From: a virus | Virus record (IMG/VR): IMGVR_UViG_3300042691_007224 | Location: 1-26,292 of that record | Reading direction: 5' to 3' (one strand) | Length of the DNA: 26,292 nt | Part shown: positions 14,289-26,292 of the stretch, piece after piece | How the letters are laid out: every line of letters starts with the position of its first letter | Numbering within the stretch: position 1 is the stretch's first letter | Notes under the pieces: model-generated | What the model saw: only the letters and a program-made list of their open reading frames with translations | Database searches by the model: none | What the model was told of the DNA's origin: nothing | Translations under genes and position numbers: made by a program

Positions 14289-14369
14289 TCATAACAAGTC
14301 AATGTTGCGGACGCGGTGTAAGTCGCGCCCAGTCGTTACGGTGTCGCTGCAAATGTGGCAGTATTTCAT
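14289..14369 (-). CDS. 26-residue CxxC micro-protein
   Basis: A short frame encodes MKYCHICSDT followed by 16 residues including GRDLHRVRN. It has a single CxxC pair plus His, so metal binding would need a dimer. The ATG overlaps the stop of the gene before it as ATGA, and GGAGG lies ten bases upstream, which supports translation. It fills what would otherwise be a gap in a tightly packed operon. Confidence 0.5.
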   Translation of the reverse strand: MKYCHICSDTVTTGRDLHRVRNIDLL

Positions 14370-14551
14370 CTTCTAGCCGCCTCCCAAGCCGCTTGACCGT
14401 GTTTATCGTAATGACCTGCTAACCAGGCACCCCATTGGTGTATCTCACCGTGTTTACTGTAAGGGCACTTGGTACCAGGTAACGCCTTCACACCTTCTGC
14501 AATGGCGCAATGTGACTCCCATTTCAAATTATCGTTTAAAGCGTTCATCAT
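14366..14551 (-). CDS. Small protein with CPY...W..G pattern (RMF-like in pattern)
   Basis: A 61-residue protein: an Ala-rich helix (HCAIAEGVKAL), then KCPYSKHGE, then a helix HQWGAWLAGHYDKHG. The spacing A-x2-EG ... CPY ... W-x2-G-x2-D recalls the ribosome-modulation-factor fold found in small phage proteins, but the similarity is short. A second ATG three bases in is equally possible. It overlaps the preceding gene by 23 bases. Confidence 0.6.
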   Translation of the reverse strand: MMNALNDNLKWESHCAIAEGVKALPGTKCPYSKHGEIHQWGAWLAGHYDKHGQAAWEAARR

Positions 14552-14849
14552 CTTTCCCCAGTGTACCTAGCATCATGGATTTACTCTGAAACACGTGGAA
14601 TTTGTTTCCACCGTTGTAAACATGCCACTCGAACGATGACGGGTTGTAATCAATCCTGACGTTCTTAAAGCGTTTGCGGAGTTGATTTAGTTCGTCTTGT
14701 GTCGGGTGTGGTTCACGGAAATTACTAACTTCTACAATTTTACCACCTGCCTTTTTAAACGCTTCCACATCAGCATTTAACTGCCGTCTAATCGCGTCTT
14801 TATTTTCAATCTCGGTGCGGACTGATAATCTAGCGTATAAACTGTTCAT
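14529..14849 (-). CDS. Hypothetical protein, 106 residues
   Basis: The ATG at 14849 has AGGGTGA five bases upstream and overlaps the stop of the previous small gene (ATGA), so it is preferred over an in-frame TTG 18 bases earlier. The N-terminal third is helical and charged (IENKDAIRRQLNADVEAFKK) followed by AGGKIVEV; the DVEAFxxxGGKI pattern appears in several small phage proteins. The C-terminal half is mixed alpha/beta and basic. No function can be assigned. Confidence 0.65.
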   Translation of the reverse strand: MNSLYARLSVRTEIENKDAIRRQLNADVEAFKKAGGKIVEVSNFREPHPTQDELNQLRKRFKNVRIDYNPSSFEWHVYNGGNKFHVFQSKSMMLGTLGKDDERFKR

Positions 14850-14959
14850 TGTTTCACCCTGTAACAAAGCGCCATTAGCTCGCCTCTCGACTTAGCCACA
14901 TACTCGTGACCGTTAAACTTGGCGTAATATAGGCCGTTGGTGTAAGGCTTCATAAGCAT
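14846..14959 (-). CDS. 37-residue micro-protein
   Basis: A short frame with a textbook ribosome site (GGAGG, seven bases before the ATG). The peptide starts MLMKPYTNGLYYAKF and reads like a small beta/alpha protein (NGHEYVAKSRGELMALCYRV). Its stop overlaps the next ATG (ATGA), and its second ATG (14953) overlaps the MazG-like gene stop the same way. Overlaps at both ends and GGAGG make this a likely real gene despite its size. Confidence 0.65.
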   Translation of the reverse strand: MLMKPYTNGLYYAKFNGHEYVAKSRGELMALCYRVKQ

Positions 14960-15381
14960 ACTATTTCCTCCTTAACGAACACACCGTTGGGTAACAATTC
15001 ACCCTTACGGTCTTTGATTATGTTGTAAGCGTGCTCGATGCAGTCGTCTAACTTTAACCCTTCGGTTGCAGCAATGTAACTCAATAAATCAGGGACTTTG
15101 CCTGACACAATATCAGCAGTGTGCATTTCGGTAAGCATCATCACCATGGATTCAAGAATATCTAACGCATCATAACACTGAGCGTGTTTTGCTAAGTCAC
15201 ATGCAATGTAATAGCACACCATTACATCACCGATAGCGTCACAAACTGACTCGGTGTCGTGTTTAATAAGTGCGTCTGCCAGTTCGCCTAACTCACTAAC
15301 GGCTTTTAAGCATTGAATGCGCGTGGTGCTATTAGGTATTATCTTTCGGTCTTTCGCCCATTGAATTATTAAGTCTTTCAT
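14950..15381 (-). CDS. MazG-like nucleotide pyrophosphohydrolase
   Basis: A 143-residue all-helical protein with the MazG / all-alpha NTP-PPase metal motif: ExxE in SELGELADAL (E30, E33) and DxxxD in DAIGDVMVCY (D48, D52). These residues bind Mg2+ for hydrolysis of (d)NTPs to the monophosphate and pyrophosphate. Phage MazG proteins may clean the nucleotide pool or lower alarmone levels; which applies here is not shown. GAGG eight bases before the ATG supports the start. It is the first gene of the minus-strand small-gene operon, right after a promoter with an operator-like repeat. Confidence 0.8.
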   Translation of the reverse strand: MKDLIIQWAKDRKIIPNSTTRIQCLKAVSELGELADALIKHDTESVCDAIGDVMVCYYIACDLAKHAQCYDALDILESMVMMLTEMHTADIVSGKVPDLLSYIAATEGLKLDDCIEHAYNIIKDRKGELLPNGVFVKEEIVCL

Positions 15382-15410: not shown

Positions 15411-15439
15411 ATAGTATTACACGGTATTACATTCGTCAA
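15411..15439 (-). promoter_or_regulatory. Sigma-70-like promoter for the MazG operon with operator in its spacer
   Basis: Read leftward: TTGACG (15439-15434), 17-base spacer, TACTAT (15416-15411). The spacer and -10 contain two tandem TGTAATAC words with a 10-base period (rc of 15424-15431 and 15414-15421). The -35 box overlaps the end of the SNF2 gene. The same word occurs in the 21.6-kb and 26.2-kb control regions, which suggests one shared regulator. Confidence 0.65.
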
Positions 15440-16839
15440 CTTTTATTTTCACGATATTTTTTAATTGCGTTTCTCAAACCTTGTTGCGTTTGGGCTTTGT
15501 CGTCAAGCGCCATTGCTTGCGCTTGGTCAAGGGTATCGGCCATTAGAATGCGGTGACACTTGATAGGTACACCCGCGCCTTGTCGCCTCAATCGGGCATT
15601 GAATTGCTCGTAAAGGTCAAGGCTCCAGTTAAGGCCAAACCAAGTGAGTATATGCCCAGTTTTCTGTAACCCGTCAATGCCGTGGCCCATACTAGCAGGG
15701 TGCCCTATCATTAGCGCGCAGTCACCCGTCTGCCATCGGTGCATTGCGTTGACCAATGATGCTTCGGTCTTGCACTCGGTTAGGTTGATGGGTCGAAGGT
15801 GTTTAAACCGCTCCATAATGCGTTGGGCATCGCTGCGGTATGAGTAAGCGCACAGCACAGGGCTGCCTTGGGCTTCATCAACTATTTCTTCCAAAGCGTC
15901 TAGTTTAAGGTCGTGAATTGCTTCCCACATAGGCAAGCCTGGCATTGGGTACATGCAGCCGTTGCTGAACTGCAAGCACTTGTTAGTCAAGCTTGCTTGG
16001 TTGAACACTTCAACAGTAGCACCACTGTCTAGTTGCAGGAAAAACTCTTTTTCCATTTTGTCGTACATGGCGCGAAGTGACGGTGGCATTACGATTTCGA
16101 TGTTGTTCACAATCAAATCAGGTAACGGGTTGTAATCCTCGGCTGACATCTCAAGGGTAATATCACCTATAAGCTCTTTAATGCGACTCTCGGTGTCGTC
16201 ATAGGGTATCTCTTTGAATGGACCAGCTTTGTAATAAAACCGCTGCCTGAATGCTGTTTTCGAAGTGCCCAGCCTAGCGCCACCGTCCACCACCAGATAT
16301 TGACCATGCAGGTCTTTGTAACCGTTGCTGGCAGGTGTACCAGTTAAACCAGTTATCCACTTCATGGCAGGTAATATCTTGCGAACTGACTTAACCCGCT
16401 GAGTGTTTGAGTTTTTACACTTACTGATTTCGTCCCAGACAATACCGTTGAACGGTAACGGCTTGTCTTTACTCACGAAATATGTATTCAGTGTCTCGGC
16501 CAACCACCCCAAGTTTTCATAGTTCACCAGGTAAACATTAGCCGGTTTCAGCAGTGCGCGGGTGCGTTGGTCGCGGGTGCCTGTCAACATGCTGAATGTT
16601 AGGTTCTTGGTGTGCTCCCATTTCGCGGCCTCCTGCTTCCACACCAGGCGAATAACGCGAATAGGTGCAACGATAATCACGGCATTCAAGAACCCAGTGT
16701 TTAACAGGTGGGCAATACTCGTCAAAGTAATCACCGTTTTACCCAGACCCATATCCAGCCACATCATTGTGGCGGCATGGGTGCATTGATGGTTTACGGC
16801 CTTCTTCTGGTACAGATGCAGCTTGTCAGGCGTTAACAT
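15436..16839 (-). CDS. SNF2-family helicase / ATPase
   Basis: A 467-residue superfamily 2 ATPase of the compact phage SNF2 type. Walker A DMGLGKT is at residues 29-35, the Walker B box is DEIS (136-139) in place of DEAH, motif III TGTPAS at 166-171, and the C-terminal lobe has GHPASMGHGIDGLQKTG (motif V) and QFNARLRRQG (motif VI, arginines 416-419). It would move on DNA using ATP and remodel DNA-protein complexes or replication/recombination intermediates. The start overlaps the VRR-NUC stop by seven bases; the two are commonly adjacent in phage replication modules. Confidence 0.9.
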   Translation of the reverse strand: MLTPDKLHLYQKKAVNHQCTHAATMMWLDMGLGKTVITLTSIAHLLNTGFLNAVIIVAPIRVIRLVWKQEAAKWEHTKNLTFSMLTGTRDQRTRALLKPANVYLVNYENLGWLAETLNTYFVSKDKPLPFNGIVWDEISKCKNSNTQRVKSVRKILPAMKWITGLTGTPASNGYKDLHGQYLVVDGGARLGTSKTAFRQRFYYKAGPFKEIPYDDTESRIKELIGDITLEMSAEDYNPLPDLIVNNIEIVMPPSLRAMYDKMEKEFFLQLDSGATVEVFNQASLTNKCLQFSNGCMYPMPGLPMWEAIHDLKLDALEEIVDEAQGSPVLCAYSYRSDAQRIMERFKHLRPINLTECKTEASLVNAMHRWQTGDCALMIGHPASMGHGIDGLQKTGHILTWFGLNWSLDLYEQFNARLRRQGAGVPIKCHRILMADTLDQAQAMALDDKAQTQQGLRNAIKKYRENKS

Positions 16840-17117
16840 TGGTCAACCATCTGCTGTATAGTCACCAATCCTTCGGTGACATTATCGATAACGAAAACAG
16901 GGCAACCTCTGCTAGTGAGTTTCAACGCCTCACGCTCCTGCAATGGGTTAGGCTTTTTACCGAGTTGTTTAAACTCGATAAAAAACACCCCACCGTTGGG
17001 TAGCACAAACATTCGGTCAGGTACTCCAGCATTACCAGGGCTTACGAACTTGTAGCACAGCAAGCCCTTCACCTTGGCGAAATCACACACCTTCTTTTCG
17101 ATTTGTTTCTCTAGCAT
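16833..17117 (-). CDS. VRR-NUC domain nuclease
   Basis: A 94-residue single-domain PD-(D/E)XK nuclease of the VRR-NUC family. The core is GNAGVPDRMFVLPNGG then FFIEFKQLGKKPNPLQ: D34, E48, K50 and Q60 are the expected catalytic positions. Stand-alone phage VRR-NUC proteins are thought to act on branched DNA such as Holliday junctions. The ATG at 17117 is preferred over one at 17186, which would run 35 codons inside the preceding gene; GGA is eight bases upstream. It is followed directly by the SNF2 helicase, its usual partner. Confidence 0.9.
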   Translation of the reverse strand: MLEKQIEKKVCDFAKVKGLLCYKFVSPGNAGVPDRMFVLPNGGVFFIEFKQLGKKPNPLQEREALKLTSRGCPVFVIDNVTEGLVTIQQMVDQC

Positions 17118-17322
17118 TTTCAAATTCCAACAATAATTCAATAAAGTGTTTGGCTTTCTCCAGGTCTTTAATTCCGCCTTTATCACGCCAGCGGGTTACA
17201 TACTTGATGACGCTACCCTCGATGAACGGTATGCTATTTCGGTGGATATACTCGACTGGTTGAATCGCTAACTTTGAATAATGATTACCACCTACCTGAT
17301 TTTTTAACGCAGTATCAGACAT
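17083..17322 (-). CDS. DUF3310 small protein
   Basis: A 79-residue protein with the DUF3310 pattern: NHYSKLAIQPVEYIHRN, then IPFIEGSVIKYVTRW, then DKGGIKDLEKAKHFIELLLE. The family is frequent next to replication genes in phages; it is sometimes labelled a nucleotide kinase, which is not established. It overlaps the polymerase end by 19 bases and the nuclease start by 35, a compact coupled order. Confidence 0.85.
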   Translation of the reverse strand: MSDTALKNQVGGNHYSKLAIQPVEYIHRNSIPFIEGSVIKYVTRWRDKGGIKDLEKAKHFIELLLEFENARETNRKEGV

Positions 17323-19115
17323 AATTTTTCAACCTCTTGAATGTAGTATTCGTAATCAATCGGTATAACGGCATCTTTAATATCATTGCAAGGTGTTACC
17401 TTCCACCCACACTCTACACCGATTTTGCGCCAGTCAGTTTTACCCTTAAGCGGTGGCATCCATTTAAACAATGAACCTCCATCAGTTGAAACATAGTAGC
17501 GGGTGATGCGTTGTAGCGGTTTATCGTCAATCGTTAAGTGGCTTGTGCGCGGCACTTTGACTTTAAGCATGAAGTCCATTTTATCAGGCCAGTTAATAAC
17601 CGTTTCTCGAATTGGCGCACCGTCTAGCAGCACCTTTTCAGCAACCTTCGGGATTACAAGCGCACTATGGTCTTGGTGCCACCCGCGCTTATACATGTAG
17701 GCACCTTTGAACTTGCGCTTACCGTCCACGGTCTCAGCTATGTAATTGTTCACATCTCGAATGAACATGCGCTTGTACTCGACTTGCTCCATCTTCAACT
17801 TGGTTACAGACTCCCAGCCTTCCACCACCTCGTTGAAAACATCACGCACACCCCTTGGGATTTTAACCGTGACACCATCCGTGTTAGCTTGGATAATGCT
17901 AATGTATTCCACATTCTCAATTAGCTTCTCGACCAGGTAGCACAGCAGCAGTTGCCCGTTAAGCGTAATCTGCATGGTCATTAGCGGGTCATAGAACACG
18001 CTGAATGGGTTGTTAGAGTCACCATAAACACCGTTCAATGCAAGCTTAAGCATTGCGTTCTCGGCAGTATTCTTGGGGTACTTCTTGCGTTCTTCTTTCA
18101 AGTTGGCGTAAATGTCGCAAAAAATATCAGGGTAATGTGCTGGCTTGAATCGTTGAGCAATAGCTGTGGACGGGTAGTAAGACTCCACATCAATATCGAT
18201 AATCGTGTGAGTGTCAGTAGATTCAACTACCTGCGACTCAATCGAGCCATGAATACCACCCAGCCCGAACACGAAGTCAATTCCACCAACTCGCGCAACT
18301 ACATCCTTAAAAACACCCTTTGTCTCAGTGATTGACTGCGATTTAAGCCACTTCAACACCCTATTAAATTCAGGTTGTTGAAACTTAATCCACGGTAGTA
18401 TGGCATCATTTAAATTTATCACAGGACGCTTGGTTTGTATGGGGGTGCGCCCGTTACGGTCGTAATCGTAACACTGGATGCCTGCCTGCTCTAACCGCAT
18501 GATGAAGAAGTCTTTGCCGATTTTGGTGTCGTTATGGTTCATGAAATCACGGTCGAACTTACGGCTTAGTTCTTCTCGGAACCGTATCATGTCTAACGAT
18601 TCAAGGTAGAACGCCTTAGTCATGCTCACGTCATGTTGGTTGTAGTGCTTCAACACTTGAATTTGGTCGCGGTTGAGCACAGTACCAGGTGGGAAAGGTA
18701 AATCCTCCACATTGTCGGCTTTCATGACGAACTCAAGCGCCTTTAGACTTGTCATTCGCGCCTTGTTGTCGAAGTGGTGAACCTTCAACAAGTCGATTTG
18801 AGGAATGAACCTGCTCGAAGGGTGTACATGATGCGTCCAGTCTTCCGACTCAATGACCGCCTGAGCCTTTTCGTAAATGATGCTTGGGTTAACTACACCC
18901 ATTTTCATAATCATGTGCAATATAGGGTAATCGAACCCCACATTGTTAAACCCAACCATTGTGGAATTGGTTTGCGACTGCAAAAACGCTAGAAACTCGG
19001 TTGAGTCATTGCGCCAAGGTGACACCTCGTAAAACAACTTAACAGGCGCGTCAACGGCTTCAAACGCGCAAGTGAACACATTAGGGTATGTCTCAATATC
19101 ATAAACCCATTTCAT
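17304..19115 (-). CDS. Family B DNA polymerase with 3-5 exonuclease domain
   Basis: A 603-residue replicative polymerase. The N-terminal exonuclease has Exo I DIE (D6, E8), Exo II GFNNVGFD (D62) and Exo III YNQHD (Y158, D162), so proofreading is likely intact. The polymerase domain has motif A DIDVESYYPS (from D307), motif B KLALNGVYG (357-365) and motif C ANTDG, where the first Asp of the usual DTD is Asn and the second (D413) is kept. No terminal-protein (TPR) insert is apparent. At 603 residues it is shorter than T4-like PolB. The ATG at 19115 has GGAG eight bases upstream; an earlier ATG at 19139 has none. Confidence 0.9.
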   Translation of the reverse strand: MKWVYDIETYPNVFTCAFEAVDAPVKLFYEVSPWRNDSTEFLAFLQSQTNSTMVGFNNVGFDYPILHMIMKMGVVNPSIIYEKAQAVIESEDWTHHVHPSSRFIPQIDLLKVHHFDNKARMTSLKALEFVMKADNVEDLPFPPGTVLNRDQIQVLKHYNQHDVSMTKAFYLESLDMIRFREELSRKFDRDFMNHNDTKIGKDFFIMRLEQAGIQCYDYDRNGRTPIQTKRPVINLNDAILPWIKFQQPEFNRVLKWLKSQSITETKGVFKDVVARVGGIDFVFGLGGIHGSIESQVVESTDTHTIIDIDVESYYPSTAIAQRFKPAHYPDIFCDIYANLKEERKKYPKNTAENAMLKLALNGVYGDSNNPFSVFYDPLMTMQITLNGQLLLCYLVEKLIENVEYISIIQANTDGVTVKIPRGVRDVFNEVVEGWESVTKLKMEQVEYKRMFIRDVNNYIAETVDGKRKFKGAYMYKRGWHQDHSALVIPKVAEKVLLDGAPIRETVINWPDKMDFMLKVKVPRTSHLTIDDKPLQRITRYYVSTDGGSLFKWMPPLKGKTDWRKIGVECGWKVTPCNDIKDAVIPIDYEYYIQEVEKLCLILR

Positions 19116-19153
19116 AATAGATACTCCGCGCCCGTCCATGGGCGCACAGGTGA

Positions 19154-19759
19154 TTAGGTCATCATGAATGGAGGAAGGCCAGCGGGAGCAGCAGTAGCGC
19201 CGAACACACCGCTTACATCAGGGGTAGCGTCACCACCGAAGCTCTCACCATCAGCAAGGAACTGTACAGCTACTAACTCACACCGAATACCTACACCATG
19301 GGTATTAGCTTGCACCCAAGGCTTAACCACGGCATTCACATAGCATCCACCGTAGATTTTCCCTGCTTCTGACTTGTAGGTCATGCTGTTGTTCGGGTCA
19401 ACTTTAACGCCTTTCTCGTCAAAAATCTGAGGGGCGTTTTTGTTGTTGGCTGAAATAACAATGTTGCCTTCGTACCCGTCATAGACTTTAAATGTCTTTT
19501 GGTTAACCTTAGTGCTGCCATCAGCATAACAACGCTTTTTGGCGTCAGCGTTGATGATATTCATTACATCAGCGGCCTTTTCCTTCCACTTATCTTGTGC
19601 GATTACTCCTACCTGCTTCATAAAATCGGCATACCCAGTGTGAGTGGGTGGTACGATAAACACAGCGTTATAGGTGGGGGTGCCGCCTTGTGTCGAAGAT
19701 TGGGGTTCTTTTAAGTGAGGGAACGAAATTCGGACATTACTTAATACGACAATACTCAT
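19154..19759 (-). CDS. DUF2815 single-stranded DNA-binding-like protein
   Basis: A 201-residue protein of the DUF2815 family, whose members look like OB-fold ssDNA-binding proteins of the T7 gp2.5 kind. Seen: SNVRISFPHLKEP at the start, YNAVFIVPPTH, a helical insert ending DAKKRC, YEGNIVISANNKNAPQIFD, and GGCYVNAVVKPWVQANTHG with AVQFL after it. The C-terminus is Gly/Pro/Ala-rich but not acidic, unlike many SSBs. It sits between DUF2800 and the polymerase as in many phage replication modules, and GGAG lies nine bases before the ATG. Confidence 0.9.
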   Translation of the reverse strand: MSIVVLSNVRISFPHLKEPQSSTQGGTPTYNAVFIVPPTHTGYADFMKQVGVIAQDKWKEKAADVMNIINADAKKRCYADGSTKVNQKTFKVYDGYEGNIVISANNKNAPQIFDEKGVKVDPNNSMTYKSEAGKIYGGCYVNAVVKPWVQANTHGVGIRCELVAVQFLADGESFGGDATPDVSGVFGATAAPAGLPPFMMT

Positions 19760-19763
19760 TTGT

Positions 19764-20948
19764 TTATTCTCCGGTTAACCATTTTGGAAGTTGAAATAGG
19801 CTACTTACATCAACCGTCACAGCCTGCCTAGGGTCTGATTCGGGTGCTACTGTTAGCTTACCTGCTTTAGTTACAACATACTCCTGCTTCATCGTTGCGA
19901 GTTGCCTAGCCGATAGGCTTTGCTTCTCACCGTTCTTTTCCCAAGTTAGCTTCTCAGCCTGCGCCACTGATACCAACTCAGTTTTATAAATGGCCGTCTT
20001 AGGTACGCCCATTTTCTTGAGTTTCTCGGCTATTTCGTCATCAGATAACGCCCACTGGCGACTACCGCGACCGTTCACCAGCTTAAACCCAGGCACACTA
20101 TTACCCGCCTGCAACCGCTTCAATACTTCTTCATCAGCACTTGCCAGCATTGTGCGAACAAGTGGTGCAGCTTCCAGTACCTTAGCCAGTTGTTCATCAC
20201 TCATAACAGAAGGGTCATTGATAGCAGCAGGGTCAAGCAATGACACATTCACAAGCTCAAGCGAGTGATTGACCAATGCAGGGCAGTTACCCTTAGCCTT
20301 GCACCACTTGCACTGTGACTCACCAGGTACCAACGGTGCGCTAGGGTCATCAGTGGCGGCAGCTTGCGCCTTAATATCAGGCACCTTAGCTAACAACTCG
20401 GCTATTGTAACAGTGTGCGAGTTGATTTGTGGGAACGCCTTGGGCTGGATAATTGTCATTTTAACCGTTTCAAAGCGCCCGTCTAGATGTTCAGTCAACT
20501 CACCCAGTGCGTAAATCTCCATCTGAGCATTATCGACAGCACTCACAGGAGTGAACCCGTCCTTGTAGTCGACAATCTCAAGCTCTGCACCGTCAACTAT
20601 GACAATATCACAAGTACCTGTTAAGTCGTCACGCCCTACGAAATGAAAAGGGTTAACGCGCTTCTCAGACGAGTAGTTGCGCCCCTTCGCATAATTGTAG
20701 GCTACCGCTACACGGGTGGCGCGTTCGGCATCTACAGTGAAAGAATCATCACCGCACAAAAATCCTTCACCTACCATTGACAAAGGGTCTACATCTTCTA
20801 ATAAGCAATGCTCTAGCACTGCATGGCTACGGGTACCATCTAATGCAGCCAAACCTGAGTTGTCGGGATATTTAGCTTCTTCGCGTACCGAACCAGGGCA
20901 CTTGCTCCAGCGGTGCCGCGAAGACGGGCTTAGTTTACTATGACTCAT
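19764..20948 (-). CDS. DUF2800 RecB/Cas4-like nuclease
   Basis: A 394-residue PD-(D/E)XK exonuclease-like protein. Motifs: WSKCPGSV (C17), GTRSHAVLEH (H42), GTCDIVIV (D114), EIVDYKDG (D127, K129), and QMEIYALG (Q142). CKWCKAKGNCPAL gives three further cysteines (213, 216, 222); with C17 they form the four-Cys pattern of the iron-sulfur cluster in Cas4/AddB-like nucleases. It probably resects DNA ends for recombination or replication. The ATG overlaps the stop of the gene before it (ATGA), and only four bases separate it from the ssDNA-binding gene. Confidence 0.9.
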   Translation of the reverse strand: MSHSKLSPSSRHRWSKCPGSVREEAKYPDNSGLAALDGTRSHAVLEHCLLEDVDPLSMVGEGFLCGDDSFTVDAERATRVAVAYNYAKGRNYSSEKRVNPFHFVGRDDLTGTCDIVIVDGAELEIVDYKDGFTPVSAVDNAQMEIYALGELTEHLDGRFETVKMTIIQPKAFPQINSHTVTIAELLAKVPDIKAQAAATDDPSAPLVPGESQCKWCKAKGNCPALVNHSLELVNVSLLDPAAINDPSVMSDEQLAKVLEAAPLVRTMLASADEEVLKRLQAGNSVPGFKLVNGRGSRQWALSDDEIAEKLKKMGVPKTAIYKTELVSVAQAEKLTWEKNGEKQSLSARQLATMKQEYVVTKAGKLTVAPESDPRQAVTVDVSSLFQLPKWLTGE

Positions 20949-21403
20949 AACGCCTCCACCTTGGCGTATAACTCGGCATACTTGTCAGGTGTTAGTTCGT
21001 TGATGTTCTCGAACCCTAGCGACTGAACTACTGTTTGAATTTCAGCGCCTTTGACTGGGCCTAGGGTGCGCCATTTAGTAGTAACCCACGCTATCATCTC
21101 GTTAGGTGTGGTGAAGGGTGCAGCGGCTACCACAGGAGCGGCTACCACAGGAGCGGCTACCACAGGAGCGGCTACCACAGGAGCGGCTACCACAGGAGCA
21201 GGAGCGGGTGGTGGAGTGAGCACAGGTTGCTGCACCACAAGCGCCGATGATGGGGCAACAGGAGCGGGTGGCGCTAACACAGGGGCTTGGGCTACTATGT
21301 TAGCCACTGCTTCTTGTTGTGCCTGCGGTAGTGTGTCTAATAGACGCTCTAGCACTCGAATATTACCAAGTACACATTCAGCCATAAGTTCAATATGTTT
21401 CAT
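20945..21403 (-). CDS. Repeat-linker protein of the replication operon, unknown
   Basis: A 152-residue protein with three parts: a helical N-terminus (residues 1-40, including RVLERLLDTLPQAQQEAV), a Pro/Ala/Val linker (about 41-97) with five copies of a five-residue APVVA unit, and a C-terminal helical domain of about 52 residues (NEMIAWVTTKWRTLG then LTPDKYAELYAKVEAL). The linker is encoded by five identical 15-base repeats. Two small domains on a flexible tether suggest an adaptor for proteins or DNA at the fork. The family is not recognised. GGAG lies eight bases before the ATG. Confidence 0.7.
   Translation of the reverse strand: MKHIELMAECVLGNIRVLERLLDTLPQAQQEAVANIVAQAPVLAPPAPVAPSSALVVQQPVLTPPPAPAPVVAAPVVAAPVVAAPVVAAPVVAAAPFTTPNEMIAWVTTKWRTLGPVKGAEIQTVVQSLGFENINELTPDKYAELYAKVEAL
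21123..21197. repeat. Five perfect 15-bp tandem repeats inside a coding region
   Basis: The unit GCGGCTACCACAGGA is present five times without a mismatch and keeps the reading frame of the minus-strand gene. It encodes the Ala/Pro/Val linker. Perfect identity points to recent expansion by slippage, so copy number may vary between related phages. Confidence 0.95.
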
Positions 21404-21602
21404 TGTTCATTCTCCAAAGATTAGTGATTGTTTTCGCAGGGGTTTCAGGTGGTGATATTGTTAATCGGTTATCTACCAGGGCGTTAAACAACTCCCTAGC
21501 TACATCACTGGGGGTGCCGTACTTACTGGCGAACTTCTTATATCGCCTGCATTCCGCCTCCTCCATTCTTACAGTGAAAACTACATTTTTAAGTTTCTTC
21601 AT
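21390..21602 (-). CDS. Ribbon-helix-helix DNA-binding protein, probable repressor
   Basis: A 70-residue protein with the ribbon-helix-helix layout: beta strand NVVFTVRM (7-14), helix A EEAECRRYKKFASKYG, turn TPSD, helix B VARELFNALVDN, and a flexible tail. Such proteins bind DNA as dimers, often on tandem sites 10-11 bases apart. It is the first gene of the replication operon and lies directly at a promoter pair carrying operator-like TGTAAT repeats, so autoregulation is the natural inference. GAGG lies before the ATG. The end overlaps the next gene by 14 bases. Confidence 0.75.
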   Translation of the reverse strand: MKKLKNVVFTVRMEEAECRRYKKFASKYGTPSDVARELFNALVDNRLTISPPETPAKTITNLWRMNNETY

Positions 21603-21626
21603 TTCAACGCCTCTTGTGTGTCGTTG

Positions 21627-21655
21627 TTGTAAATTGTAATACAGTGAATTACACT
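21627..21655 (+). promoter_or_regulatory. Rightward promoter of the primase-helicase gene
   Basis: TTGTAA (21627-21632), 17-base spacer, TACACT (21650-21655), followed by the ATG at 21688 with AAAGG seven bases before it. The spacer carries the same operator as the leftward promoter, so one bound protein could block both. Confidence 0.5.
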
Positions 21656-21661
21656 ATGCAA
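21633..21661 (-). promoter_or_regulatory. Leftward promoter of the replication operon
   Basis: Read leftward: TTGCAT (21661-21656), 17-base spacer, TACAAT (21638-21633). The -10 box matches the consensus at five of six positions. The spacer holds TGTAAT and TGTATT with a 10-base period. It faces the rightward promoter at 21627-21655 and shares the operator with it. Confidence 0.6.
21635..21653. promoter_or_regulatory. Operator-like inverted repeat TGTAAT-N7-ATTACA
   Basis: A 19-base element with arms TGTAAT and ATTACA, lying between the -10 and -35 boxes of both divergent promoters. Its first eight bases, TGTAATAC, recur at 15414, 15424 and 26231. A neighbouring gene encodes a ribbon-helix-helix protein, the likely ligand. 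Confidence 0.6.
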
Positions 21662-21687
21662 CAGCCAAAACAAAAAAAGGTTAAATC

Positions 21688-24138
21688 ATGCAACCAGTTC
21701 AACAACACCCCGCTTCAGTCGATGCTTATATCAGATACGGATGGTCACTTGTACCCGTACCACCAGGCACTAAAGGCCCCACGCACGAAGGATGGAACAA
21801 GCGAGAAAACGCGCTCAAGGAAGGCCAGCTACCGCCAGGCTGGGGCATCGGTATAGCCCACGCCTATAGCGGCACCATGGCGCTAGATATAGACGACTGG
21901 GACACGGCTCTAAACATGCTCTTAGACGATGGCATTAACTTAAACACGCTCTACAATGCTCCCGATGCAGTAATCATCGACAGTGGTCGTGCTGGGCGCG
22001 GCAAGCTGCTCTACATGATGCCGCTCGGTATCGTGCTCGAAAGCAAAAAAGTACAGAAAGCTGGGAAGGTAATCTTTGAACTACGGTGTGGCACTAGCAC
22101 AAACACCACTCTGCAAGACATCCTGCCGCCTACAATCCACCCTGAGACCAAACAACCTTACCGATGGGCAGGTAAAGGCCACTGGATGCGCCTGCCCGTG
22201 GTACCCACCGAACTGCTCGCTCTGTGGCAGAACATGCTTGTGAAAAACGCGCTACACACTATCGACAGCGGGGACGGGGTTAAAGTGTGCTGGGACGATG
22301 TCAAAGCCGCTCTAGCGTGCATTCCTGCCGACTGTGGGCGCCAGACATGGATAGAGTGCGGCATGGCCTTACACTCGACACAGCACGAACAAGCGTTTGA
22401 AGTGTGGAGTTCTTGGAGTGCAAGAGGAGGCGACAAGTACAAAGGGGAGCGCGAAATTTTAGGTCAGTGGGAGTCATTCAAGCCCGACCGAGCTATCCAC
22501 ATAGCCACCCTATTTCACCACGCAAAGGAACACGGTTGGGAGCGCCCACCACAAGACTACTCCCACCTATTCGCAGACATCACAGCAACACCTGACGAGC
22601 TACTCGACCTACGCCCTAGACCGCCCAAGCTCGATGTTGACCTACTGCCTCCGGTGTTGGCTAGGCGTGCTAGAGAAGTCGCCACTACTCGCGGCTGTGA
22701 TGTTACAGTTCCGGCTTGGGCGGCTCTATCGGCAGCGTGTGCGTGCATCGACTCGCGTTCTAGGTTAACGCTCTTAGGTGATTTCAAAGTGCCGCCTATT
22801 CTGTGGATGATGGTCATAGGCCCACCTGGTGATAAAAAGTCACCTGGCAGTGACCCGCTCTTTGGTGTACTGGAACAACTCGAACTGGAAGACCGGCCAA
22901 GCCATGCTCTAAAGATGCTGGACTACGAAGGTAGAGAAGCTGCTTGGGCATCTAGCCATAAGGCATACCTAGACTATTGTGCGTCACCTGAGTCGCTCCT
23001 AGGCGATGGTGCGCCTACTGTATTAGACCAGCCTGTTAAGCCTGCCGCGCTTGTGCTCAAAGTAACCGATGTGACCAGCCAGAAGCTTGTACGGATAGCC
23101 GCTGAGCGACCTAGAGGTGTCGCGTGTGTGCTCGATGAAATGGCCTCATGGGTTGCGAAAGTAACCGACCCGAAAAGTGGCGACGACCGTAGCTCTTGGG
23201 TGCAAGGTTACGAAGGCCGCACTTATCGCATGGACAGGGTAGGCGATGGCACACTATCGGCCGAGAACTTCGCGGTTTCTATCTACGGTAACATTCAGCC
23301 CGAAGTGTTTCTCTTACGCGCCAAGCAACTAGCTCAAGATGGCCTCTTGCAGCGTTTCATTCCAGCCGTAACAACTAAGCAAACCAAGGCGCACCAACTA
23401 GGCCAGATTATTCCCGACTTCTTGCAGAACAAGCCCCAATATGAGGCCGCCTTGCGCCTTGCATTCAGTATGCCGCCACAGAACTACACCCTAAGCGACC
23501 GAGCCGCGCACGACTACCATAACTTCCGCGTGTGGTTCTACGACCAAAAAGAGGACTACGAATTACTGGAACTAGCCGAGGGGTTCTTAACCGCTTACAG
23601 CAAACTAGAGGGCACTTGCGGCCGCCTGGCGCTTATTATGCACTGCGTCGAGCATCCTTTTAGCACAGTAGTGAGTGCCGAAACAATGCAGCGCGCCATT
23701 AGAATCACCCAAGAATATATTGTGCCAGCGTTACGCTATACCTTGTGCGAGTTTGCAGGCCTGGACAAGTTCGATAATTGGGTAGTTGACTGGGTGTGTG
23801 TGCGTGCGGTAGACCATGATAGTTTTACCCTATGCGATATTCGCGCAAGCGCAAGGGCGCAGCTAGCAGGGATGCATCAGTGGCAGCAAGAACAGAAAAT
23901 ATTTGCAGCGTTAGGCAGGCTTGAAGACGAGAATTACATTAAGCGCCTGGACGATGGCGCTAAGGTTTTAGCGCACCGGGCAGAATGGGCGCTCAATAAG
24001 CGAATAGTCGAGCAGTTTAAAGAGTATATTGTGGCAGTTGTCGCAGCTAAGGCACGCGATAGGGCGCACCAGTACCGGCACAGTCGAAAAGGTACCCCAC
24101 CGCCAAGGGTAGCCGCACAACACTTGCTGGAGGAATGA
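21688..24138 (+). CDS. Primase-helicase: PrimPol + PriCT-2 + DUF3987
   Basis: An 816-residue fusion. Residues 10-175 form an archaeo-eukaryotic-type primase/polymerase domain: RYGWSLVPVPPGTKGP, acidic DIDDW (D67, D69), SGRAGRGKLLY where a SxH-like motif is expected, and FELRCGTST ending PPTIHPETKQPYRW. Residues about 200-265 match PriCT-2 (VKAALACIPADCGRQTWIECG). Residues 315-700 match DUF3987, a helicase-like ATPase with Walker A GPPGDKKSP (378-386) and an acidic box VLDEMASW near residue 480. It would lay primers and unwind DNA for the polymerase encoded on the other strand. It is transcribed alone and ends at a bidirectional terminator. Confidence 0.85.
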   Translation: MQPVQQHPASVDAYIRYGWSLVPVPPGTKGPTHEGWNKRENALKEGQLPPGWGIGIAHAYSGTMALDIDDWDTALNMLLDDGINLNTLYNAPDAVIIDSGRAGRGKLLYMMPLGIVLESKKVQKAGKVIFELRCGTSTNTTLQDILPPTIHPETKQPYRWAGKGHWMRLPVVPTELLALWQNMLVKNALHTIDSGDGVKVCWDDVKAALACIPADCGRQTWIECGMALHSTQHEQAFEVWSSWSARGGDKYKGEREILGQWESFKPDRAIHIATLFHHAKEHGWERPPQDYSHLFADITATPDELLDLRPRPPKLDVDLLPPVLARRAREVATTRGCDVTVPAWAALSAACACIDSRSRLTLLGDFKVPPILWMMVIGPPGDKKSPGSDPLFGVLEQLELEDRPSHALKMLDYEGREAAWASSHKAYLDYCASPESLLGDGAPTVLDQPVKPAALVLKVTDVTSQKLVRIAAERPRGVACVLDEMASWVAKVTDPKSGDDRSSWVQGYEGRTYRMDRVGDGTLSAENFAVSIYGNIQPEVFLLRAKQLAQDGLLQRFIPAVTTKQTKAHQLGQIIPDFLQNKPQYEAALRLAFSMPPQNYTLSDRAAHDYHNFRVWFYDQKEDYELLELAEGFLTAYSKLEGTCGRLALIMHCVEHPFSTVVSAETMQRAIRITQEYIVPALRYTLCEFAGLDKFDNWVVDWVCVRAVDHDSFTLCDIRASARAQLAGMHQWQQEQKIFAALGRLEDENYIKRLDDGAKVLAHRAEWALNKRIVEQFKEYIVAVVAAKARDRAHQYRHSRKGTPPPRVAAQHLLEE

Positions 24139-26192: not shown

Positions 26193-26230
26193 TGTTGACA
26201 GTGTAAACAGTACAAGTGACAGTGTCAACA
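26193..26230. promoter_or_regulatory. 38-bp quasi-palindromic operator
   Basis: Outer arms TGTTGACA and TGTCAACA are perfect eight-base inverted repeats; inner TGT/ACA and a central GTAC also pair. TGACAGTGT occurs twice in direct order (26196 and 26217), 21 bases apart, two helical turns. The -35 and -10 of the leftward promoter are built into the arms. Confidence 0.65.
26200..26228 (-). promoter_or_regulatory. Strong leftward early promoter
   Basis: Read leftward: TTGACA, a perfect -35 (26228-26223), 17-base spacer, TACACT (26205-26200). It leads into the 36-residue gene and the clamp-like gene. Rightward, GTGACA (26216-26221), 17 bases and GAAAAT (26239-26244) could form a divergent promoter toward the window end, with TGTAATAC in its spacer. 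Confidence 0.7.
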
Positions 26231-26292
26231 TGTAATACGAAAATAGTTTTATCACTGGCATGGTAAAAAGAAATTGGAAAAATGAAAAAAAA

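Follow-up and report, generated by a model that had tools for sequence, protein, structure and literature searches.

A probable ribbon-helix-helix autorepressor with two phased operators in an uncultivated P22-like phage group

A short word, TGTAATAC, recurs in the non-coding DNA of the window, by which we mean the whole stretch analysed here, a linear IMG/VR virus fragment of 26,292 bases. Its repetition raises the questions of which protein might read it and which genes that protein would control. The preliminary description placed the word at 15.4 kb (in tandem), 21.6 kb and 26.2 kb, and proposed that it forms a phage-wide regulon. An exact search of the whole window gives the same four copies and no others, at 15414-15421 (-), 15424-15431 (-), 21635-21642 (+) and 26231-26238 (+).

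Distribution and genomic context of the repeated word

Shuffled windows contain 0.93 copies of TGTAATAC on average, with four or more in 3 of 100, and four copies are reached in 0.3% of order-2 Markov sequences. The window holds an exact tandem at 15.4 kb; two copies within 12 bp occurred in none of 300 random (order-2 Markov) sequences. All four copies are intergenic, although by a plausible gene map intergenic DNA makes up only 1,389 bp, or 5.3% of the window (p ~1.5e-4 for three of three independent places). The copy at 21.6 kb sits in the 85 bp separating two divergent genes, those for the ribbon-helix-helix (RHH) regulator and PrimPol, and the pair at 15.4 kb lies within the 54-bp gap that separates helicase from MazG. 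The genes concerned are as follows.

21390-21602, minus strand: predicted RHH regulator of 70 residues, heading the leftward replication operon; assigned from homologues, an alignment and a structural model
15436-21403, minus strand: leftward replication operon after the RHH gene, comprising g20945, a DUF2800 nuclease, an Enc34-type SSB, a polymerase, DUF3310, a VRR nuclease and an SNF2-type helicase
21688-24138, plus strand: PrimPol/DUF3987 primase-polymerase, the divergent predicted target gene (Pfam Prim-Pol, PriCT_2, DUF3987)
14950-15381, minus strand: MazG-like protein, the first gene after the predicted second operator (Pfam MazG, E 4.5e-4, just below the cut-off)

The structural genes of the window (coat, scaffold and tail accessory factor) are P22-like. 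Megablast found no match to the window among annotated phages, and a search for the helicase in bacterial genomes found none, hence there is no sign of prophages. The only annotated relative found was DSL-LC05 (OR003940), 76.7% identical over the helicase, and the order of the replication operon is kept both there and in the other relatives.

Downstream of MazG, the window encodes a protein with a SutA RNA-polymerase-binding domain (14529-14867, minus strand; Pfam E 2e-8, above the cut-off) and a ribosome-modulation-factor-like protein (14366-14551, minus strand; E 0.0018), such that three consecutive genes (MazG, SutA-type and RMF-like) relate to starvation or hibernation control. The SutA-type and RMF-like genes are shared with the near-identical contig L072, and tblastn of the other relatives returned no convincing match. 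On the other side of the array, several relatives (L004, L005, L006, L011 and others) carry a mini-ORF of 12-17 codons, 30-60 bp before PrimPol, whose stop overlaps the PrimPol start (ATGA). It contains GACAACTGCATTGTC and is preceded by a strong hairpin, GCCCTGACCTTGTGAGTCAGGGC, an arrangement resembling a leader peptide or attenuator.

Two sites built from phased boxes within promoters

TGTAATAC is this phage's variant of the actual unit, a pseudo-palindromic box, TGTnnnACA, that recurs at 10-11 bp intervals. Read in this way, the window contains two candidate operators, each coinciding with promoter elements.

21625-21663, no strand assigned: main predicted operator, in which four TGTnnnACA boxes succeed one another in exact steps of 10 bp, TGTTGTAAA-t-TGTAATACA-g-TGAATTACA-c-TATGCAACA
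21627-21655, plus strand: predicted promoter toward PrimPol, TTGTAA (21627-21632), 17 bp, TACACT (21650-21655), read from the sequence
21633-21661, minus strand: predicted promoter toward the RHH gene and replication operon, TTGCAT, 17 bp, TACAAT, read from the sequence
15413-15431, minus strand: second predicted operator behind the helicase gene, tandem boxes TGTAATACC-g-TGTAATACT with a 10-bp step
15411-15439, minus strand: predicted promoter of the downstream unit (MazG, SutA-RBD-like, RMF-like), TTGACG, 17 bp, TACTAT, with 9/12 matches

The array at 21.6 kb matches TGTnnnACA at 21/24 positions, where 60 random sequences reached a maximum of 20 (mean 16.9), and its three-box score is 16/18 against a maximum of 15 among the same random sequences. 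The two promoters at this site stand face to face and overlap fully, with the -10 and -35 elements of both inside the array. At 15.4 kb the two boxes occupy the promoter spacer and cover the -10; scored only against TGTnnnACA, this pair reaches 10/12, which is not unusual in random sequence. The preliminary description had also read 17-base spacers of σ70-like promoters at both sites, agreeing at 12-13 of 17 positions. The spacers read as it described, and a direct recount of the 15.4-kb spacer against the two 21.6-kb spacers gives 13/17 and 12/17 identical positions. Promoter-like matches in the region number 14, against 16.6 in shuffles, and are thus not above chance, and the PrimPol promoter (8/12 matches) falls under the threshold of the promoter scan; because of this count, the assignment of promoters at both sites rests on their conservation in relatives.

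Conservation and exclusivity in relatives

The comparison drew on 132 loci gathered through PrimPol and helicase searches, in which RHH homologues were found through their neighboring genes. The RHH protein is too short and divergent for a direct search, and querying viral contigs with it gave no confirmed relatives. By position, an RHH homologue divergent from PrimPol is present in at least 78 of the loci. Among six loci examined that lack a BLAST hit, a clear RHH-like protein occupies this place in five and is doubtful in the sixth (L068).

A de novo search of 39 nonredundant regions upstream of the RHH gene, using one-per-sequence EM (a run allowing any number of sites was dominated by A/T tracts), returned the inverted repeat TGTATCACA-n-TGTGCTACA. 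When a pair model was trained on half of the regions, 37/39 held-out regions scored above the 95% null and 32/39 above the 99% null (control, 0.3/19). An independent search of different DNA, behind the helicase, recovered the same word as TGTGATACACTG; this search used loci with a gap at that boundary, an earlier run having been dominated by the ribosome-binding sites of coupled genes. When the RHH-promoter matrix is applied to the helicase-downstream regions, 17 of 24 score above the 99.9% null. At the RHH promoter, relatives keep the phased-box architecture seen at 21.6 kb together with TTGCAC/TTGACA, a spacer of 16-19 bp and TACACT; at the helicase boundary they show TGTGATACAC-TGTGnnACA. 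One box shares bases with the -10 element, and some of the conservation seen is therefore that of the promoter.

Strong pairs (score >17) were counted across nonredundant relatives totaling 1.21 Mb. There are 39 ahead of RHH or PrimPol and 31 behind helicase or MazG (one of them in a wider 900-bp window, which may be chance), against eight elsewhere. The two places hence hold 70 of 78 strong pairs, compared with 4 of 23 for a reversed-matrix control (4 there, 19 elsewhere). In 23 records 36-43 kb long, exact tandem-box patterns likewise fall only at these two places, with none in the reversed control; two of these positions were checked and the rest placed by coordinate arithmetic from the earlier loci. 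The word is therefore kept at the same two promoters in relatives, and strong pairs avoid coding DNA rather than recurring there at random, the two outcomes on which the preliminary description had staked its claim. Patterns of the window's own operator type were also found elsewhere in viral contigs, at nine and twenty places, and were set aside as unrelated, since except for L072 none of these contigs encodes the proteins in question.

The second site moves with gene organization. In around half of the relatives the next gene is translationally coupled to helicase; among these, the second site lies behind MazG in several and none was found in some. In L075, L077, L078, L087 and L006, MazG is coupled to helicase and the operator has moved behind MazG, such that the site marks an operon boundary rather than a fixed gene. 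In L125, L127 and L134 the downstream unit opens instead with a similar coiled-coil-like protein of 65-69 residues (PTAExLALRELEEAKR...AYL), which replaces MazG. The second operator is identical in L072, which is weak evidence given that this contig is 96% identical to the window.

In a blind scan of the window with the relatives' matrix, the 21.6-kb site ranks third among pairs of any orientation (it is the best inverted pair, with spacers up to 3) and the 15.4-kb site ranks low. These low ranks arise because the box centers differ, being TGTAATACA in the window versus TGTAKCACA in relatives.

Phasing of the recognition unit

Around the -10-proximal box of the RHH promoter, TGTnnnACA matches reveal a partner peaking at -11 (26/36 within -10 to -12) and a further partner peaking at -21 (22/36 within -20 to -22). 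At the helicase promoter the partner peaks at +10 (23/28 within +10 to +12). Off-phase control offsets gave 0/36 and 0/28, respectively. Both sites are arrays of pseudo-symmetric TGTnnnACA boxes at steps of 10-11 bp, and the window follows this rule with its exact 10-bp steps at 21.6 kb. Calling the repeats 'inverted' or 'direct' makes no real difference, because the box is pseudo-symmetric and repeated once per helical turn.

This phasing bears on the simplest reading of the word, that it is a strong σ70 extended -10 consensus (TGTGnTACACT) read by no regulator. TACACT and TACAAT are usable as -10 elements and TGnTACACT as an extended -10, and both sites do overlap promoters. However, a second and often a third box is added at 10-11 bp steps, on the upstream side at the RHH promoter and on the downstream side at the helicase promoter, with none off phase, and only the eight strong pairs mentioned above occur elsewhere in the 1.21 Mb, though these genomes must hold other promoters. 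A promoter consensus fails to explain the phasing and exclusivity of the boxes, and we regard it as improbable.

An isolated third copy

The third place named in the preliminary description differs from the other two.

26231-26238, plus strand: isolated TGTAATAC copy adjoining a minus-strand promoter, TTGACA-17-TACACT; unlikely to be an operator

This copy lies outside any spacer, two bases upstream of the -35 of TTGACA-17-TACACT, which is the best promoter-like site of the region. That proximity is what speaks for a regulon of three sites; against it, the box is single and unphased, around 0.9 copies per window are expected by chance, and no conserved third site appears in the relatives or in DSL-LC05. 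No phased partner was found in the sequence around 26.2 kb, the 1.21 Mb of relatives held no third conserved site, and the complete DSL-LC05 genome holds exactly two sites, scoring 25.0 and 23.8, with no third strong site (next best, 12.9). We consider a third operator improbable and do not count this copy, which is probably a chance occurrence, as it is single, unphased, without a conserved counterpart and expected at close to this frequency. Of the three early control regions originally proposed, those at 15.4 and 21.6 kb are conserved, and the one at 26.2 kb lacks both a phased partner and a counterpart in relatives.

The minus-strand promoter beside it (26200-26230) falls within a repeat, TGTTkACACTGTCAmy, whose two copies are spaced by 21 bp. 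It also includes the palindrome TGACA-C-TGTCA; some other protein may use this sequence as an operator.

The 70-residue protein as the candidate reader

The product of the gene behind the main array is very probably an RHH protein. The window protein itself matches none of the RHH families. Its relatives show weak matches to several, namely HicB (10/37, best 3.2e-4), NikA, RHH_10, RelB and ParG; one of the 37 matches the PHROG 'Arc-like repressor' (E 0.004) and one matches ParG (E 0.096). The monomer model features an extended N-terminus followed by helices at 15-28 and 31-43, with core pLDDT >90; the RHH strand requires a dimer. The best PDB folds for this model are the RHH antitoxins ParD and FitA, at E ~5-8, which is not significant on its own, and a search of the family profile against PDB sequences gave only noise, with ParD at E 1.5. 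Within the family alignment R12, G29, R36, A41 and R46 are invariant. R12 falls in the N-terminal extended stretch and G29 ahead of helix 31-43, so that a basic strand residue and a small residue at the start of helix 2 are both present; we assume these roles, in the strand and at the second-helix start, from knowledge of the RHH family. RHH remains the best assignment because of the relatives' weak matches, the model, the invariant residues and the phased symmetric boxes at the gene's own promoter.

The boxes might instead be a real operator read by some other protein, be it a regulator of the host or a different repressor of the phage, in which case the RHH gene would just happen to head its operon. 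Binding by the RHH protein is predicted from sequence, and the annotation of DSL-LC05 includes a repressor protein C as well as a putative regulator. Against this, the RHH gene always lies directly behind the best site, and the sites are not scattered over the genome as those of a host factor would be. RHH proteins such as Arc, CopG and Omega, moreover, usually have operators made of symmetric boxes phased at one helical turn. We judge another reader unlikely. A replication origin or partition site, i.e. iterons or a centromere bound by the RHH protein with regulation secondary, could also account for an array adjoining a primase gene, and RHH proteins are known to bind centromere arrays. In each phage, nevertheless, the boxes fall on -10/-35 elements, and another promoter 6 kb away has a shorter site of its own, making this reading very unlikely. 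Both proposals are less economical than an RHH autorepressor.

A predicted two-operator feedback circuit

The candidate operator at 21.6 kb and the promoter of the RHH gene itself overlap, an arrangement conserved in relatives and expected of an autoregulated repressor. From these sequence data, we think it likely that the protein is an autorepressor acting on the phased boxes to close the RHH/replication, PrimPol and 15.4-kb promoters, forming a two-operator negative-feedback circuit. Each TGTnnnACA box would take one RHH dimer, whose two-stranded ribbon would enter the major groove there, and neighboring dimers would line up along the boxes at their 10-11 bp spacing. At the four-box array, one such protein array could shut both the RHH/replication operon and PrimPol, and the two boxes at 15.4 kb would shut off the next unit, which consists of MazG and small genes, at its promoter, coupling it to the same signal as the replication genes. 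The protein would build up early in infection and so cap expression of the replication genes and the downstream unit.

Computation gives the sites, their phasing, conservation, exclusivity and linkage to the RHH gene. Binding, repression and its timing are what we infer from them; repression is favored over activation because the boxes lie inside the core promoter. Of the phage-wide regulon controlled by one polymerase-blocking protein, as first proposed, the placement of the operators inside core promoters holds, and its extent reduces to two conserved sites. Similarly, the family of the 70-residue protein is very probably as first named, and its binding of the word stands as a prediction.

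More tentatively, the -35 and -10 hexamers of both face-to-face promoters may double as boxes of a single RHH array. If true, both polymerases and the repressor would compete for one 40-bp stretch, a compact promoter design, and this design would have been kept across an uncultivated phage lineage, with the box center drifting with the protein.

The principle of an RHH autorepressor on phased boxes is already known. These data provide a testable regulatory function and exact candidate operators for a family of hypothetical proteins that, across a large group of uncultivated P22-like phages, are encoded at the start of the replication operon. We came across no earlier description of regulation in this group in the literature searched. 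They also supply around 40 distinct natural protein-operator pairs for studying changes in RHH specificity.

Comparison with known systems

CopG, Omega and ParG bind cooperatively to arrays of short boxes spaced at about one helical turn or less, and are autoregulatory. The phased short-box array described here resembles theirs, and one relative of the protein gives a weak ParG match (E 0.096). Those systems differ in their plasmid context, and no partition ATPase was found beside the RHH gene in the window's Pfam map.

Arc and Mnt of Salmonella phage P22 are small RHH proteins whose adjacent dimers occupy phased pseudo-symmetric sub-sites overlapping promoters. They are located in the immunity-I region, where they repress transcription around their own genes and control ant. 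The window phage shares P22-like coat and tail genes, and one relative of its protein matches an Arc-like repressor; its gene, in contrast, heads a replication operon, is divergent from PrimPol and is associated with the box TGTnnnACA. This is a likeness of layout, in which kinship at the sequence level is at most tentative.

Overlapping divergent promoters also form a genetic switch on plasmid pLS20, in which DNA looping plays a part, according to the title of that work (PMC4207663). The window differs in presenting two arrays 6 kb apart, with no evidence of looping.

A further comparison is with DSL-LC05, which derives from a lake metagenome, may represent a new family and is predicted to be lytic (PMC10611076). 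Its genome record carries no annotation of the sites or of an RHH function, and the word 'repressor' is absent from the text of the paper (PMC10611076). Its gene order is nonetheless that of the window, its RHH gene corresponds to the 'hypothetical protein' WJZ48135.1, and both operator sites are present.
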